Shown here: positions 27,644 through 33,319 of the stretch, one piece after another
How the letters are laid out: every line of letters begins with the position of its first letter
Numbering within the stretch: the first letter of the stretch is position 1
Assembly (NCBI GenBank): GCA_022779945.1
Contig: JALEYA010000089.1
Span: 1-36,684 of the forward strand
Length of the DNA: 36,684 bases
DNA from: Oscillospiraceae bacterium
Lineage (GTDB): Bacteria; Bacillota; Clostridia; Oscillospirales; Acutalibacteraceae
Reading direction: 5' to 3'
Translations under genes and position numbers: made by a program
Notes under the pieces: model-generated
Told to the model about the DNA's origin: nothing
Database searches by the model: none
Seen by the model: the letters and a program-made list of their open reading frames with translations, nothing else

Positions 27644-27670
27644 GTGTATTCAACGGTGTGGGAACAAAGA

Positions 27671-27712
27671 AACAGACTGCACCCATGCAAAAGGTACAGC
27701 CTGTCTCTTAAA
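27671..27712 (-). terminator. probable terminator of the agr operon
   Basis: ACAG-CTG-ACC pairs with GGT-CAG-CTGT with two internal mismatches; on the minus strand TTTCTTTGTT follows. The stem is imperfect, so some read-through into mnmE is possible. Confidence 0.55.
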
Positions 27713-27721
27713 AATCAAACC

Positions 27722-27841
27722 TTATTTCTTCAGTTTCTTCGGCATCTTCGGCTCGTAAGCAACGCCGGAAGAAGCGGCTCCTGCGCCGAGATTGGCGATA
27801 GCCTTAATAACTTCAGCAATTTTTGCACTGATTGCGTTCAT
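27722..27841 (-). CDS. agrD: AgrD autoinducing peptide precursor with serine ring residue
   Basis: A 39-residue precursor of a cyclic quorum-sensing peptide. An amphipathic leader (MNAISAKIAEVIKAIANLG) is followed by ASSGVAY and the conserved tail EPKMPKKLKK. In most AgrD proteins a Cys begins a five-residue ring closed as a thiolactone. Here Ser25 occupies that place, so the predicted ring is Ser-Gly-Val-Ala-Tyr (25-29), closed as a lactone, as in Staphylococcus intermedius. Cleavage by AgrB is expected after Tyr29. AAAGGGG precedes the ATG, and the gene begins 29 nt inside the end of agrB. Confidence 0.9.
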   Translation of the reverse strand: MNAISAKIAEVIKAIANLGAGAASSGVAYEPKMPKKLKK

Positions 27842-28427
27842 TATTTTTAACCCCTTTCTGTTTGATTTTTTCTATAATGATCATTATTGAAACCGAAATA
27901 AAGGACCATGCCGCATTGACGGCGATCTGCTTGTCCGAAGCAAGGACAAAAATCAGAATATAGGTCAAAACATATATACAAACAAGACTTCGTGAAATGA
28001 TCTTGTTTTTTCTCAGTGTCTTTTCCGAGCAAGGATGATTTTCGTTCTGAACGGGAGCAGATATCCAGATAATGACGGCGCTGACCAGAAACAAAACCGG
28101 CATAATGAAAGAAAGCTTCGCCAGCATGATAAGGTAGGTATACGCAACCGTCGAAAGGAAGGTCAGGTTGGTGATGATGAAGCATTTTGCATAGGTGCTT
28201 GCGTGATATCCGCCGCAAAAAAGACGCAGCGAGAAGAAGAACAGCAGAAAGAACAAGGCGTAGCCGATGTGCCCGAGAAGAAGCGACAGTATCGTCACAC
28301 TGCTTAACGAAAAAAGAGTGGAGAACAATATTTCAAAGCCGTAAATATAGACGTCTCTGTCGTCGCTTGCGATGGGATAATACTTTTCAAGCTTTTTGAC
28401 GCAGTAACAAGCGCATCGGTTCAGCAT
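27813..28427 (-). CDS. agrB: AgrB peptide-processing membrane protease
   Basis: A 204-residue integral membrane cysteine endopeptidase that cuts the AgrD tail and forms the ring ester. The catalytic pair is His75 and Cys82 within RLFCGGYHASTYAKC, the same spacing as His77/Cys84 of Staphylococcus aureus AgrB. Several membrane helices follow (for example FIMPVLFLVSAVIIWISAPV). Length is normal. CGGAGGAA precedes the ATG. It follows agrC by 18 bp and overlaps agrD by 29 nt, so the protease and its substrate are made together. Confidence 0.95.
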   Translation of the reverse strand: MLNRCACYCVKKLEKYYPIASDDRDVYIYGFEILFSTLFSLSSVTILSLLLGHIGYALFFLLFFFSLRLFCGGYHASTYAKCFIITNLTFLSTVAYTYLIMLAKLSFIMPVLFLVSAVIIWISAPVQNENHPCSEKTLRKNKIISRSLVCIYVLTYILIFVLASDKQIAVNAAWSFISVSIMIIIEKIKQKGVKNNERNQCKNC

Positions 28428-28445
28428 AAAGATTCCTCCGTCTGC

Positions 28446-29783
28446 TTAATTAAGTTTGTTGTTCGGCAGCATGGCAACAGATGTGAAATATCCGTTTGCA
28501 TATTCGTTTTTGAGTGTTCCGCCGTATCGGCTGACGGTCCGCATGATGTTTTTTACGCCAAGGCCGTGCATATCGGTATTGTCTGTCTTCGAGCTTTTCA
28601 GTTCCTTTTTCTCGTCGAAGGGATTGCCCGGCGCTGTATTGGTGACCTTGAAAAAGAGAAAGGCTTCCTTTTGCCATATTTTGACCTTGATCGACCGTTC
28701 TTTTCCGTTGTTGATTCTTTTGCAGGCCTCGATGGCATTGTCGATCTGATTGGCGAGAATGGCACAGATGTCGACCGATGAAAGGTAAACAGGGGACGAA
28801 AGCATCACATAATGTTCAAACGGTATGTTTTCGTCCCTTGCTTCTTCAATTTTACAGTTGATGACGGAATTGATGACGTCGTTGTTTGAGTGGCACAGCT
28901 TTGCCTGCTCATAAGAGACGGACAAAAGATCTTCCACATACTTTTTGGCGGGGGAACCGTTTTCAAGCATACCGTTGAGCGTCCGCATATGGTTTTTGAA
29001 GTCATGCACCTGATGACGGACGGCGGTCTGTGCGTTCTGCGTCTGTTCAAAGTTCTTTTTCATCATTTCATTGGTAAGCGACATCAATTCGATTTCACGT
29101 TTTTCGGTTTGGTATTTTGAACTCAAAGAGATCGCAAAAACGGTCATGATGAAAGACAGAACAATAAATACAAGCGCAAAAATCACCGTCAGCTGAATGA
29201 TCCAGAGTGTGCTTGACATGATGAACGCAGTGATAACGGACATGACGATATAAGAACCGGTCGTGATGGCCAAAACGACGCCGAGGTATTTTTGATCCAG
29301 AAGGCGCAGCTTGTCATAAATCTTCCGGCAAAGGATGAAAATAACAATTTCAATCAGTTTGTCGATTGCCAGAAAGACCGCACGCATATTGCCGGAGGAC
29401 ATGACCGTTTCGACGCATTTTGAAATGTCGAGGGAATGTCCTGCAATCATTAAAAAGCAGTAAAAAATAAGGTAGTCGATGGCGTGAAGAGAAAACCATG
29501 CAATCATTGTGGAGGTTGCCTTCAGAAGCAGAGAGCCGCGGGAGGCAAAAGAGGTGATAAGAAAAGTATAAAGGATACAGCAGATTATGGTGACAAAGGA
29601 AAAGACCTTCCAATTGTTCATCAAGGTGACAAACACGGTGTAAAAAATCGTACAGGCAAGAATCAGAAGGATATTTTTCCGTTTGTCTAACTTATTTTGC
29701 GACATTCTGATGGGAACGGACAAGGCCATGATTCCCTCCGAAAAGGTCGCAAATAATTCCATAAATTGGTAAAATACGCTCAT
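28446..29783 (-). CDS. agrC: AgrC-like sensor histidine kinase
   Basis: A 445-residue membrane kinase that should bind the cyclic peptide outside and phosphorylate the LytTR regulator. Residues 1-~215 contain six or seven hydrophobic segments without extracellular domains, as in AgrC. The phospho-acceptor region is AVRHQVHDFKNHMRTLNGM; the ATP-binding domain has an N-box (LANQIDNAIEACKRI) and a G-box (MHGLGVKNIMRTVSRYGG), typical of the HPK10 class. It lies four bases after the regulator gene. The peptide it senses is presumably the product of agrD/agrB from the same operon. Confidence 0.92.
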   Translation of the reverse strand: MSVFYQFMELFATFSEGIMALSVPIRMSQNKLDKRKNILLILACTIFYTVFVTLMNNWKVFSFVTIICCILYTFLITSFASRGSLLLKATSTMIAWFSLHAIDYLIFYCFLMIAGHSLDISKCVETVMSSGNMRAVFLAIDKLIEIVIFILCRKIYDKLRLLDQKYLGVVLAITTGSYIVMSVITAFIMSSTLWIIQLTVIFALVFIVLSFIMTVFAISLSSKYQTEKREIELMSLTNEMMKKNFEQTQNAQTAVRHQVHDFKNHMRTLNGMLENGSPAKKYVEDLLSVSYEQAKLCHSNNDVINSVINCKIEEARDENIPFEHYVMLSSPVYLSSVDICAILANQIDNAIEACKRINNGKERSIKVKIWQKEAFLFFKVTNTAPGNPFDEKKELKSSKTDNTDMHGLGVKNIMRTVSRYGGTLKNEYANGYFTSVAMLPNNKLN

Positions 29784-29787
29784 ATTT

Positions 29788-30501
29788 TTAAAGTCCCCAT
29801 TGCTCTAATAGAATTTGCTTGACTTCCTGCATGGAACGCCGGCTGATCGGAAGCGAAACTCCGTTTTTCAGCTTCAGGCTGTACCCCGATATCTGGGAAA
29901 TATAATCAATATTGACAAAACAGCTGCGGTCGATGAAGATGAACCGTCTGTCGTTCAGCTCGTCGAAAAACTCCTTGATTCCGCGGTTGTCGGTGATATC
30001 TGCGTAGCTTTCGGTGGAGATGATCAGCTGCCTTGCGACACGATTGACACAGATGATTTCGCTGTACGGAATCCGCCAGTAGTCGTTATACCGGCGAAGG
30101 GTCAGAACGTCCGTATCGGACTTGAAAACCTCTTTGACCGCACAGTCAAGCGCTTCGGGCAGATCCCGCTCCATATTCAGCTTGATGACAAATCGCAGCG
30201 CACGGGCTTTGTAGCCCTCGGCGGCCTGCTCGTCGTGTGATGTTAAAAAAATGATGGCTGAGGTCGTGGAGTATTCCCGGATCTGTCCGGCAAGTTCAAA
30301 GCCGTCCATTCCCGGCATGGATACGTCGAGAATATAGATATCGGAGGTTTTGCCGTCCTTTAGCTCATATAGCAGCAGTTCGGGCTTATAGAAGCAAGTG
30401 AGCGAATATTGAAGATGATTTTTGTTGCCGTAGCGTTCAAGCTCATCTTTGATCAGCTGAATGTCATTCTCACTGTCGTCGCAAACCGTTATTCTTATCA
30501 T
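29788..30501 (-). CDS. agrA: LytTR-family response regulator (AgrA type)
   Basis: A 237-residue response regulator. The receiver has acidic residues D8/D9, the phospho-acceptor D59 in IYILDVSMPGMDGFE, T87 and a lysine near K107. The C-terminal LytTR DNA-binding domain (about 135-237) includes IICVNRVARQLIIST and RRFIFIDRSCFVNIDYI. Proteins of this class bind paired 9-bp direct repeats, and such repeats are present at three promoters here. Its ATG overlaps the preceding stop (ATGA), so it is co-translated with the unknown 177-aa protein. Confidence 0.93.
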   Translation of the reverse strand: MIRITVCDDSENDIQLIKDELERYGNKNHLQYSLTCFYKPELLLYELKDGKTSDIYILDVSMPGMDGFELAGQIREYSTTSAIIFLTSHDEQAAEGYKARALRFVIKLNMERDLPEALDCAVKEVFKSDTDVLTLRRYNDYWRIPYSEIICVNRVARQLIISTESYADITDNRGIKEFFDELNDRRFIFIDRSCFVNIDYISQISGYSLKLKNGVSLPISRRSMQEVKQILLEQWGL

Positions 30502-31031
30502 GAAATATCCTCCTGCGCTTTCAGAGCCTTTGCTTCCGACAACCGGAATGCTTTTTTTCGGTTGATGTCGAAAAAATAGCTTTCGGGGTTTCGGCCGATC
30601 AGAATATACATATCGTTGTAAGCTCTTTTGTCCTTTGTGTTCAGGTTGCTGTTATAAATAAAAACGCCGTCGTCCCGGTTTTGGACGTGCTGTTTCAGCC
30701 GGTCGCAAATATCCTCGATGGATGCGGTACGATAGCGTGAGGACGTCCAGTGAGGAATCATTTTCCGTATCTCCTTGTCCGAATTGATGTCAACGGATAA
30801 AACGGACGGGATATGGTTGATAATACCTATAAGGTTTTGTTGGCTGATAGCGTCGCAGCTTGCAAAAACCGCAAGCGTGTCATAAAAATCACAGCCAATG
30901 TACATCAGATCACAAAAAAGGGTGTCGTTTTCTTCCGACCGTCCGAAACGATGTCCCATCTTGCAGTCATCGGAAAGAATTTTGACAATCATACTTCTTA
31001 TGGGTGCATCAAGATTCAGATTACTGTTCAT
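30498..31031 (-). CDS. protein of unknown function leading the agr operon
   Basis: A 177-residue soluble protein starting at ATG 31031 (MNSNLNLDAPIRSMIVKIL), with GGAG eight bases upstream; an upstream TTG in frame is less likely. It has no signal peptide or membrane segment. Notable parts are GHRFGRSEENDTLFCDLMY, DFYDTLAVFASCDAISQQN, the region around IPSVLSVDINSDKEIRKMI, and YNDMYILIGRNPESYFFDIN. I do not recognise the family. It is the first gene from the agr promoter and overlaps agrA by ATGA, so it is made in step with the regulator and may modulate it. Confidence 0.75.
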   Translation of the reverse strand: MNSNLNLDAPIRSMIVKILSDDCKMGHRFGRSEENDTLFCDLMYIGCDFYDTLAVFASCDAISQQNLIGIINHIPSVLSVDINSDKEIRKMIPHWTSSRYRTASIEDICDRLKQHVQNRDDGVFIYNSNLNTKDKRAYNDMYILIGRNPESYFFDINRKKAFRLSEAKALKAQEDIS

Positions 31032-31082: not shown

Positions 31083-31088
31083 AGTATA
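31083..31088 (-). promoter_or_regulatory. -10 element of the agr operon promoter
   Basis: TATACT on the minus strand (31088 to 31083). No consensus -35 lies 17 bp upstream, as expected for a promoter needing an activator. It is 42 bp from the nearer LytTR repeat. Confidence 0.6.
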
Positions 31089-31116
31089 GTCCAAATCAAA
31101 TGAAATTTGTCGATTG

Positions 31117-31152
31117 TTGTATCAAACGGTAGAAAAATTTGTATCAAACGGT
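31117..31152 (-). promoter_or_regulatory. LytTR direct repeats for the agr operon promoter
   Basis: ACCGTTTGATACAA occurs twice on the minus strand, beginning at 31152 and 31130, 22 bp apart. The nearer copy starts 42 bp before TATACT. It is the expected binding site for the operon's own LytTR regulator, giving positive feedback. Confidence 0.75.
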
Positions 31153-31168
31153 TTATGGGAAACAGTTG

Positions 31169-31238
31169 ACCGTTTGAACATAAAAATCATACCGTTCAGA
31201 CAAAAGCGTCCCTTTTTCAGCATGAAATGTGCTATTGT
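31169..31238 (+). promoter_or_regulatory. divergent LytTR-controlled promoter
   Basis: On the plus strand ACCGTTTGA (31169) and ACCGTTCAG (31191) are 22 bp apart, and the second begins 42 bp before TATTGT (31233-31238; TATAAG at 31238-31243 is an alternative). The layout mirrors the agr operon promoter. The -35 region is poor, again suiting activation. Confidence 0.65.
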
Positions 31239-31244
31239 ATAAGC

Positions 31245-31747
31245 AGTTCTCTTTGCCGTATGAAGTCAACCTTTTCATGACAACTGAATTTTAGCATAAA
31301 CTCAGTTGCAAAACAAGTTGAAGCCTGTCGAGAAACGGGAAATATTTTAAAAAATTTATCTTTTTTCGATTCTTCGGCAGGAATACACGAAACATTGACG
31401 AAAACGGACGCTCAGCGCGGCGGTTTTGTCCGTCATACACCCCAAAATGATTTCCTTCATTCCGGTCAACTCCGCCGCTTTCGAAATTGCTATCACCCTT
31501 GCACCCTTTTCAGCACGGATCTGTCGCTTGGCCGGCAGGTCTGTGTGTTTTTTATACTTGCTTGCAAGGTAACAAATAAAGAAACGGCAGCCTTTTCTCT
31601 GACTGCCGCAAAGTATTATGCCCAAGGGTCGGAGCTTTCGGGCTGATGGATTCCCGTAAGCAGAAACCGCTCCCGGAGATACCATTTTCCGTCTTTGGCT
31701 TTTCGATATTTTTTTAGTAAACAAACTGAAAACAATTCCAATTGAAC
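31245..31747 (+). ncRNA. candidate RNAIII-like transcript; region without a convincing gene
   Basis: About 500 bp downstream of the divergent LytTR promoter hold no plus-strand frame with a good ribosome-binding site. Hairpins are visible: CAACTGA (31281) with TCAGTTG (31302), and CCTGTCGA.GAA (31325) with TTC.TTCGGCAGG (31370). The layout (agr operon and a divergent RNA from paired promoters) parallels P2/P3 of Staphylococcus agr, where RNAIII is the effector. The 3' end is not visible; it could instead be a long leader for the transporter gene at 31835. Boundaries are approximate. Confidence 0.4.
31571..31608 (-). terminator. minus-strand hairpin with T-rich tail
   Basis: CGGCAG (minus strand, 31608-31603) pairs with CTGCCG (31590-31585), followed on the minus strand by TTTCTTTATTTG. 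It lies just past the stop of the frame at 31616-31752. Confidence 0.5.
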
Positions 31748-31752
31748 TTGAC
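31616..31752 (-). pseudogene. possible gene remnant on the minus strand
   Basis: A frame ending at TAA 31618-31616 has protein-like content (KKYRKAKDGKWYLRERFLL, then TGIHQPESSDPWA) and is followed directly by a terminator-like hairpin. No start codon with a ribosome-binding site is found, and the consensus promoter of the next plus-strand gene overlaps its upstream end. It looks like the 3' end of a gene whose front has been lost. I do not recognise the family. Confidence 0.35.
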
Positions 31753-31776
31753 ATATCTTTTTGTATACTGTATAAT
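31748..31776 (+). promoter_or_regulatory. promoter of the transporter-esterase operon
   Basis: TTGACA (31748-31753), 17 bp, TATAAT (31771-31776): a full consensus sigma-A promoter. Confidence 0.88.
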
Positions 31777-31834: not shown

Positions 31835-33319
31835 ATGAAGAACCCTTTTAATCTGCCCACACCCGCCGGCTGGCAGACCGGTAAAAAAGAAAGAATGTGC
31901 TATTACCTGTATTTTGCAGGTCAGAATGCCGTTTATTTTCTGATTGCAACGTATCTGACAACCTATATGATGTTCCAGGGCGTTGACCTGAAAAAGTCCG
32001 CTGCCGTTATGCTTGCGGTCAAGGTCTGGGACGCTGTCAACGACGCTATTTTCGGCGTTATTTTCGATGCCGTTAAATTTAAGAGCGGAAAGAAGTTTAC
32101 GCCGTGGCTCAAGGTTTCCACACCGCTGATTGCCATTACGACCATTCTTCTTTTCATCATTCCGAAGGGTTCGGGCGAGGGTGTGAAGCTTGCCTGGCTT
32201 GCTGTCGCTTACATTCTCTGGGATACCGCTTACACGCTTTGCGACGTTCCGATTTACGGAATCATCACCGCTATGACCGAAAATCTTGACGAAAGAACAT
32301 CCATGCTTTCTTATAAGAGCATCTGGGGCGGCGTCGGCAATGCGCTTGCCACTGTTCTGGCTTCCGTTCTTGTCAGCGAAAAGGTCGGCTCCAGTTATGC
32401 CATTGTTGCTCTTGTTATTGCTGTTTTCTCGTTTGCTACGATGTATCCCGCCGCGAAGAATCTGAAAGAACGCTGCGTACCCGTAAATGAAGAGTCATTC
32501 ACGCTTCGCAATATGTTCAAGTACCTGTTCAGCAACAAGTATCTTCTGATCTACTATCTCGGATACTTCTTCTATTCGTCCGCGAATGTTGCCAACAGCC
32601 TGAATCTTTTTGTTTCCTATTATCTTTTCAACAACTCTTTGTTCTCGCTCGTTGTCGGTGCGCTCGGCGTGGCTCCGATGCTCATCTTCTCACTTCTTGT
32701 ACCGCATATGCTTCGTAAGATTGACAAGATGAAGCTGTATGTAATCTGTACGATTTCGGTAATCGTTTTAAGCGTGTTCAACTGGGTGATCGGCTACGGC
32801 AGTATTGTCATGTTTATTATTCTTACAACACTGCGTTCCATACCGCTTGCGATTATCGGCGTCGTTATGTTCATGTTTACGCCTGACTGTGCCGAATACG
32901 GTAAGTTCAAAACCGGAATCGATGCGAAGGGAATTACGTTCTCGATCCAGACCTTTATGGCAAAGCTTACGGGTGCCGTTTCCGGTGCTCTCGGAATGTT
33001 CATTCTCGGTCTGAAGTCCTCCGAATGGGTCAGCATTGAGGTCGAAAACTTCGAACAGCTTCAGCAAAGCGGCGTAATACAGACGCCGCATGCGCTGAAC
33101 GTGCTCTGGTTCGTTTATATTATGGTTCCGGCAATCGGCTGTATGCTTGCTCTTGCAACCTGGCTTTGTTACCGTCTGAAGGACACGGACGTTCAGATCA
33201 TGGCCGACTGCAACACCGGCAAGATCACCCGTGAAGAAGCGTTCGAAAGGCTTTCGAATCCCTACGGCTGTACGCTTGAAATGAAACAAACCGCAAAAAG
33301 CGGGGAGAAAGCGGAATGA
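31835..33319 (+). CDS. GPH/MFS-type sugar-cation symporter
   Basis: A 494-residue transporter with about twelve membrane helices, of the glycoside-pentoside-hexuronide:cation symporter group of the major facilitator superfamily. The N-terminal AVKVWDAVNDAIFGVIFD is the typical NDxxxG-like cation-site helix of MelB relatives, and DTAYTLCDVPIYGI and PDCAEYGKFKTGIDAKGI are also family-like. Cytoplasmic N- and C-termini are polar. GGGAGGA precedes the ATG. Its stop overlaps the esterase start (ATGA), so the imported compound is probably an acetylated glycoside or glycan fragment; the actual substrate is unknown. Confidence 0.88.
   Translation: MKNPFNLPTPAGWQTGKKERMCYYLYFAGQNAVYFLIATYLTTYMMFQGVDLKKSAAVMLAVKVWDAVNDAIFGVIFDAVKFKSGKKFTPWLKVSTPLIAITTILLFIIPKGSGEGVKLAWLAVAYILWDTAYTLCDVPIYGIITAMTENLDERTSMLSYKSIWGGVGNALATVLASVLVSEKVGSSYAIVALVIAVFSFATMYPAAKNLKERCVPVNEESFTLRNMFKYLFSNKYLLIYYLGYFFYSSANVANSLNLFVSYYLFNNSLFSLVVGALGVAPMLIFSLLVPHMLRKIDKMKLYVICTISVIVLSVFNWVIGYGSIVMFIILTTLRSIPLAIIGVVMFMFTPDCAEYGKFKTGIDAKGITFSIQTFMAKLTGAVSGALGMFILGLKSSEWVSIEVENFEQLQQSGVIQTPHALNVLWFVYIMVPAIGCMLALATWLCYRLKDTDVQIMADCNTGKITREEAFERLSNPYGCTLEMKQTAKSGEKAE

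Follow-up and report, generated by a model that had tools for sequence, protein, structure and literature searches.

Serine lactones from agr-type signalling have been published for Clostridium thermocellum (PMC5322536), Staphylococcus pseudintermedius and Enterococcus faecalis. The C. thermocellum AgrD product was determined by liquid chromatography-tandem mass spectrometry as the lactone Ser25-Phe29, with Tyr30 outside the ring and Pro35 conserved (PMC5322536). In Clostridioides difficile the autoinducing peptide (AIP) of agr1 is [CPWII] and that of agr2 is tabulated as NSA[SSWVA] (PMC12312760). Here we describe an agr operon from a gut bacterium that we place in the Acutalibacteraceae, its family also including Acutalibacter sp. 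1XD8-36. The operon was found on a stretch of 36,684 nucleotides (contig JALEYA010000089.1, C82 of a 2.2-Mb genome; hereafter the window) and has a precursor that lacks cysteine and probably yields the five-residue lactone Ser-Ser-Gly-Val-Ala.

Compared with C. thermocellum Clo1313_2818, the window AgrD has a Ser at the same offset, a predicted five-residue lactone cut before Tyr and a Pro five residues on, but the C. thermocellum agrD is solitary, without apparent agr operon, whereas the window has a full operon in a different host family (PMC5322536). C. difficile agr2 also groups four agr genes with a two-component system, and its listed ring, Ser-Ser-x-Val-Ala, is identical to our prediction in four of five residues; unlike the window it has no reported gene X, its order is written agrACDB and its host belongs to another family (PMC12312760). 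The S. pseudintermedius circuit makes a five-residue serine lactone (RIPT[STGFF]) from genes in BDCA order, with a four-residue tail and in another bacterial family. E. faecalis fsr shares the serine lactone (GBAP) and AgrB-, AgrC- and AgrA-like proteins, but has a nine-residue ring, fsrD within fsrB and no RNAIII. Staphylococcus aureus P2 and P3 have long spacers (18 and 20 nt) and tandem AgrA sites (PMC4227749); the window similarly has candidate AgrA sites in direct repeat, oriented towards two predicted promoters that diverge and have long spacers between -35 and -10, but S. aureus makes a thiolactone and RNAIII, whereas the divergent RNA of the window is only predicted and matches no Rfam family.

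The five genes lie close together on the minus strand at 27722-31031 in the order X-agrA-agrC-agrB-agrD (Table 1). This order recurs in other genomes and is therefore not due to chance. AgrA has a receiver (PF00072, E 9e-14) with phospho-acceptor motif LDVSMPG at residue 58 and a LytTR domain (PF04397, E 1.8e-14). AgrC matches the GHKL ATPase family (PF14501, E 2.9e-23) with an HDFKNH box at 260, an N-box at 345 and GLG at 407; its hydrophobic stretches amount to about six transmembrane (TM) segments. AgrB (PF04647, E 4.6e-37) retains Arg68, His75 and Cys82, which are invariant across the subfamily, and AgrD, MNAISAKIAEVIKAIANLGAGAASSGVAYEPKMPKKLKK, scores 36 bits against TIGR04223 (cut-off 19). 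One operon thus encodes a polytopic GHKL kinase with its LytTR regulator, an AgrB-family endopeptidase with catalytic His and Cys, and, adjoining agrB, an AgrD-type precursor with a Pro31-x-x-Pro34 tail whose Ser24 aligns with the ring-closing Cys/Ser position. The agr locus is authentic, with domains and catalytic residues intact, and we hold this with high confidence. A preliminary description of the window, made from its letters only, had reported a complete agr set with intact AgrB His75 and Cys82; all five genes were indeed recovered in the same places and AgrA, AgrB, AgrC and AgrD all have domain matches. A phage or plasmid origin was considered and rejected: phages gave no AgrB match, plasmid AgrBs (Paraclostridium, Monoglobus) are only 29-34% identical, and viral contigs gave one match at 30%.

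AgrD has no Cys at all and the end of its core reads SSGVAY-EPKMP. The same five genes are present in a second species of the genus (G003; contig CAMAZY010000005.1 of a metagenome-assembled genome, MAG), whose AgrD is identical to that of the window from residue 3 onward: one amino acid change at residue 2 stands beside seven synonymous codon changes, versus 42 amino acid differences in AgrB, and agrD is more conserved than the other genes of the operon. A sequencing error or mutant as source of the serine was rejected, given the identical AgrD core in this independent genome. With high confidence, the comparison indicates that the serine is genuine and maintained. G003 has a second agr locus, which is of the cysteine type. 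This AgrB was absent from the other 32 genus genomes searched; in one genus member (L070, G173:C218) the sole AgrB match is remote and has an internal stop (TGA), possibly a sign of decay. The agr locus is rare in the genus, yet not decayed in the window.

In order to locate the ring, AgrDs adjoining AgrB relatives were taken from family and named genomes and aligned on the E/Q-P-x-x-P tail, positions being counted from the residue preceding the tail (Tyr29 in the window), such that Ser24 is -5 and Ser25 is -4. Among 33 AgrDs without ring Cys, the -5 column is Ser in 32 and Thr in the remaining one, whereas -4 is Ser in only six and elsewhere E, I, W, M, L, T, Q, N and others. A class-wide sample of 87 further AgrDs has Cys (56), Ser (23) or Thr (3) at -5, 82 in total. 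Since the -5 column is Ser in Cys-less relatives and C/S/T throughout the class, Ser24 appears to be the homologue of the ring cysteine. The C. thermocellum residues Ser25-Phe29, Tyr30 and Pro35 line up with Ser24-Ala28, Tyr29 and Pro34 of the window, and the C. difficile agr1 ring matches a sampled precursor (L137) that reads TCPWII and would be cut in the same manner before HQPKVP. Because characterised AgrDs are cut before the residue that precedes the E/Q-P-x-x-P tail (PMC5322536, PMC12312760), the ring is placed to end at Ala28. We have good confidence that the ring is probably the five-residue lactone Ser24-Ser25-Gly-Val-Ala28, with Tyr29 in the discarded tail. The preliminary description had predicted a lactone rather than a thiolactone, with serine standing in for the ring cysteine; the Cys-less AgrD and its conserved Ser24 agree with this, and its suggested check, whether homologues have Ser, came out in favour since they are not all of the Cys type. 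Its ring limits, SGVAY, are most likely wrong. The correction concerns the predicted signal of a group of gut commensals and determines which peptide to synthesise and seek: the computed [M+H]+ is 402.198 for cyclic SSGVA (473.235 and 544.273 with one and two Ala) versus 478.230 for cyclic SGVAY and 565.262 for SSGVAY. A lactone without tail may convert to the isobaric homodetic ring, as was observed with a lactone analogue (PMC11297923).

A ring Ser25-Gly-Val-Ala-Tyr29, for which AgrB would have to cut between Tyr29 and Glu30, is unlikely. Ser25 is present in the window, G003, L079 and L081, and in certain Cys-type AgrDs from the family (CVALY, CYIIY) the Cys occupies the same offset, so that a ring of five residues would end in Tyr; the poor conservation of Ser at -4 described above nevertheless opposes it, as does the C. 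thermocellum lactone, proven by mass spectrometry, which leaves Tyr out (PMC5322536). We consider a lactone of six residues (Ser24-Tyr29), or any larger ring, very unlikely: six- and nine-residue agr rings are known (C. acetobutylicum and E. faecalis GBAP; PMC4916163), but the likely six-residue type in our sample has its Cys one position earlier (-6) rather than a later cut, and the window AgrD shows no sign of a cut after Tyr29.

Another reading of the serine is that the agr locus has decayed or does not function, or that the precursor gives rise to a linear peptide. A literature search yielded no AIP product from any Acutalibacteraceae, and to our knowledge no agr product of this family has been described, which would fit such a view. 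It is hardly credible, given that frames are open throughout, catalytic residues are kept, agrD is the most conserved gene between the two species (1 change in 39 amino acids) and Ser is conserved across deep AgrB clades. The claim of the preliminary description that the serine does not result from decay of an unused system is upheld by the same evidence.

LytTR sites are 9-bp direct repeats 22 bp apart. Perfect tandem repeats of this kind, a predicted AgrA site, stand at the operon promoter and are conserved in two relatives: the pair that faces the operon is kept in G003 and occurs as ACCGAATGA/ACCGTTTGA in L076. A second pair, facing away, is conserved in G003 within diverged flanks, while L076 retains only one pair. 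Allowing up to three mismatches, a box scan gave three matches in the window versus 0.05 expected by chance, and the exact double box has a single occurrence in the genome. A broader AgrA regulon was considered and rejected, as the remaining box-like sites of G000 and G003 carry two to three mismatches and lie mostly within long reading frames. Box pairs that face both ways are, beside gene X, the less ordinary feature of this locus.

With cleavage site, lactone, export, sensing and DNA binding taken from homologues, the genes, domains, catalytic residues, serine conservation and box repeats found here are best explained by a complete agr autoinduction circuit with an SSGVA serine lactone, which we regard as very likely. 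AgrD would be anchored to the membrane via its amphipathic N-terminal part and cut by AgrB (Cys82/His75) between Ala28 and Tyr29, upon which the Ser24 hydroxyl would attack the acyl-enzyme to form the lactone; a short N-terminal tail may remain on it once the leader is removed close to the GAG-A-A motif. After export the peptide would activate AgrC, which would phosphorylate AgrA, and AgrA binding to the paired ACCGTTTGA boxes would switch on the X-agrACBD promoter in a positive loop, perhaps also activating a divergent transcript. Several observations weigh against this scheme. The boxes fit the AgrA pattern by type alone, only a minority of the related operons show AgrA-type boxes and they were not found before most other X operons. 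Furthermore, 9 of the 19 Cys-type AgrDs in our collection have Cys at -4, in eight as sole candidate ring Cys, such that a ring closed via -4 is conceivable in principle and Ser25 could also close the ring. These eight AgrDs (L011, L014, L016, L025, L026, L027, L057 and L059; e.g. NSTTCVALYQPKAP) would have rings of four residues, or five counting Tyr/His, and most of them sit on one branch of the AgrB tree.

Ser-type precursors make up about a quarter (23/87) of the AgrDs sampled class-wide, a share that is approximate since the sample is biased to high-scoring matches. Ser types cluster in the AgrB tree, requiring 6 changes versus 11.4 in shuffles, and span several deep groups; the window groups with G003 and a roe-deer MAG, L076 (support 99/98). 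L020 and L050 (G057, G073) have Cys-less AgrDs, STSSGTLFQP and STTSFTFYQP, nested among Cys(-4) types, a placement that suggests recent Cys-to-Ser switches. Most Ser-type relatives have the order A-C-B-D. Serine-ring signals and the ACBD order are not new, and the agr system of the window is an ordinary one of the serine-lactone type, though well preserved. The preliminary description overrated both the serine ring, which is common in Clostridia and already in the literature, and the departure from the staphylococcal BDCA order, ACBD being usual among relatives. In Clostridia, agr signals closed through serine are widespread and deeply rooted, not a curiosity.

Table 1. Features of the agr locus and its control region, in window coordinates.
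Feature	Position	Strand	Remarks
Intrinsic terminator 3' of agrD	27667-27709	-	18-bp stem, U-rich 3' end, fold energy -28.1 kcal/mol
agrD	27722-27841	-	Signal precursor, 39 aa, overlapping the end of agrB
Predicted ring codons Ser24-Ser25-Gly26-Val27-Ala28	27758-27772	-	Conserved Ser at -5 from Tyr29
agrB	27813-28427	-	Membrane cysteine endopeptidase/cyclase
agrC	28446-29783	-	Sensor histidine kinase, ~6 TM segments and GHKL ATPase
agrA	29788-30501	-	Response regulator, receiver and LytTR DNA-binding domain
Gene X	30498-31031	-	Orphan protein of 177 aa, first in the operon; ATG start agrees with relative L061 (start 3917)
P2-like operon promoter TCGACA-19 nt-TATACT	31083-31113	-	Read from sequence; TTGACA-19-TATACT at the same place in G003
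Tandem AgrA/LytTR-type box, ACCGTTTGATACAA twice, 22 bp apart	31117-31152	-	Exact 14-nt repeat, facing the operon
Second tandem box ACCGTTTGA / ACCGTTCAG, 22 bp apart	31169-31199	+	Facing away from the operon
Candidate P3-like extended -10 TGCTATTGT	31230-31238	+	33 nt after the second box; TGCTAAAGT at 32 nt in G003
Candidate divergent non-coding RNA, ~310 nt	31244-31556	+	Terminator scan; ends in 14-bp hairpin 31513-31546 and T-run
Possible basal promoter TTGTTT-17-TAAAAT, extended -10	31288-31316	-	Upstream of the boxes; TTGTTT-17-TACAAT in G003

Gene X is, as judged from the sequence comparison, a family-restricted orphan and a less ordinary part of this operon. Homologues directly before agrA were identified in the window, G003, L076, Acutalibacter sp. 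1XD8-36 and the near-identical L077, MH27-2, L081, G469, G1146 and G080; X precedes agrA in every X locus with a readable next gene, the G1084 locus ending at the contig end. Among 398 genomes of the family 8 have X, and a sample of 394 from across the order gave 4 with it, every one from the Acutalibacteraceae; searches of phages, plasmids and viral contigs gave no X. The protein is soluble by hydropathy. Sequence searches of Pfam, NCBIfam, PHROG and PDB gave no significant match, and PADLOC gave a lone, unconvincing AbiC match (E 0.0022) in one of eight X members. A confident AlphaFold2 model has a predicted local distance difference test score of 80.7 (86.2 for the C-terminal domain alone). 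Fold searches with the whole protein and the C-terminal domain gave no confident match (best Z about 3, Foldseek E above 0.5); among the weak matches, members of the barnase/colicin E5/RelE-type fold of small RNases from bacteria (RNase Sa, colicin E5, RelE) recur, and the domain's nearly invariant His is Arg in the window X. An RNase kinship is a lead only, and our confidence in any role of X is low.

Transcription from the P3-like promoter would yield a divergent RNA of some 310 nt, a candidate in which our confidence is low. In the window its terminal hairpin and T-run close the region at about 31553. The hairpin recurs in G003, where four one-sided changes preserve pairing (-21.7 and -24.9 kcal/mol); the T-run is weak in G003, where the predicted RNA is about 210 nt. 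Rfam gave no match above gathering score for the candidate, and by inspection no coding frame of more than five codons is common to window and G003 in this region. Against such an RNA speak the best conserved block, 31278-31330, which could equally be a minus-strand basal promoter (TTGTTT-17-TAAAAT) feeding the operon, the poor plus-strand -35 and the comparison of just two genomes. That agr is five-component here, with X as dedicated circuit partner, and that AgrA in the genus of the window drives a divergent, RNAIII-like short RNA, is a tentative proposal, possible though rather doubtful. If either the divergent RNA or a role for X were true, the staphylococcal P2/P3 design would gain a counterpart in gut commensals.

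Beyond the control region, a remnant at 31616-31705 (minus strand) is 82% identical to the 3' end of a gene that is intact upstream of agr in G003 (L061:2819-3310). Where G003 has this gene the window has its reduced form, followed by a major facilitator superfamily (MFS)-type transporter gene (31835-33319), right before which stands a perfect promoter, TTGACA-17-TATAAT (31748-31776, plus strand). G003 encodes, convergent to agrD, a 669-aa protein (L061:7303-9312, minus strand) whose sequence reads as a TIR domain with leucine-rich repeats. Upstream of X in four X-agr operons (L063, L091, L081 and L230) a divergent helix-turn-helix (Xre-like) gene apparently stands where the window has AgrA-type boxes. 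Adjacent to the agr operon in Acutalibacter sp. 1XD8-36 (L063:7406-9300), genes for a radical-SAM-like protein, an acyl-carrier-like protein, a short Cys/His-rich peptide and a subtilisin-like protease form a group that looks like a peptide-modification cluster.

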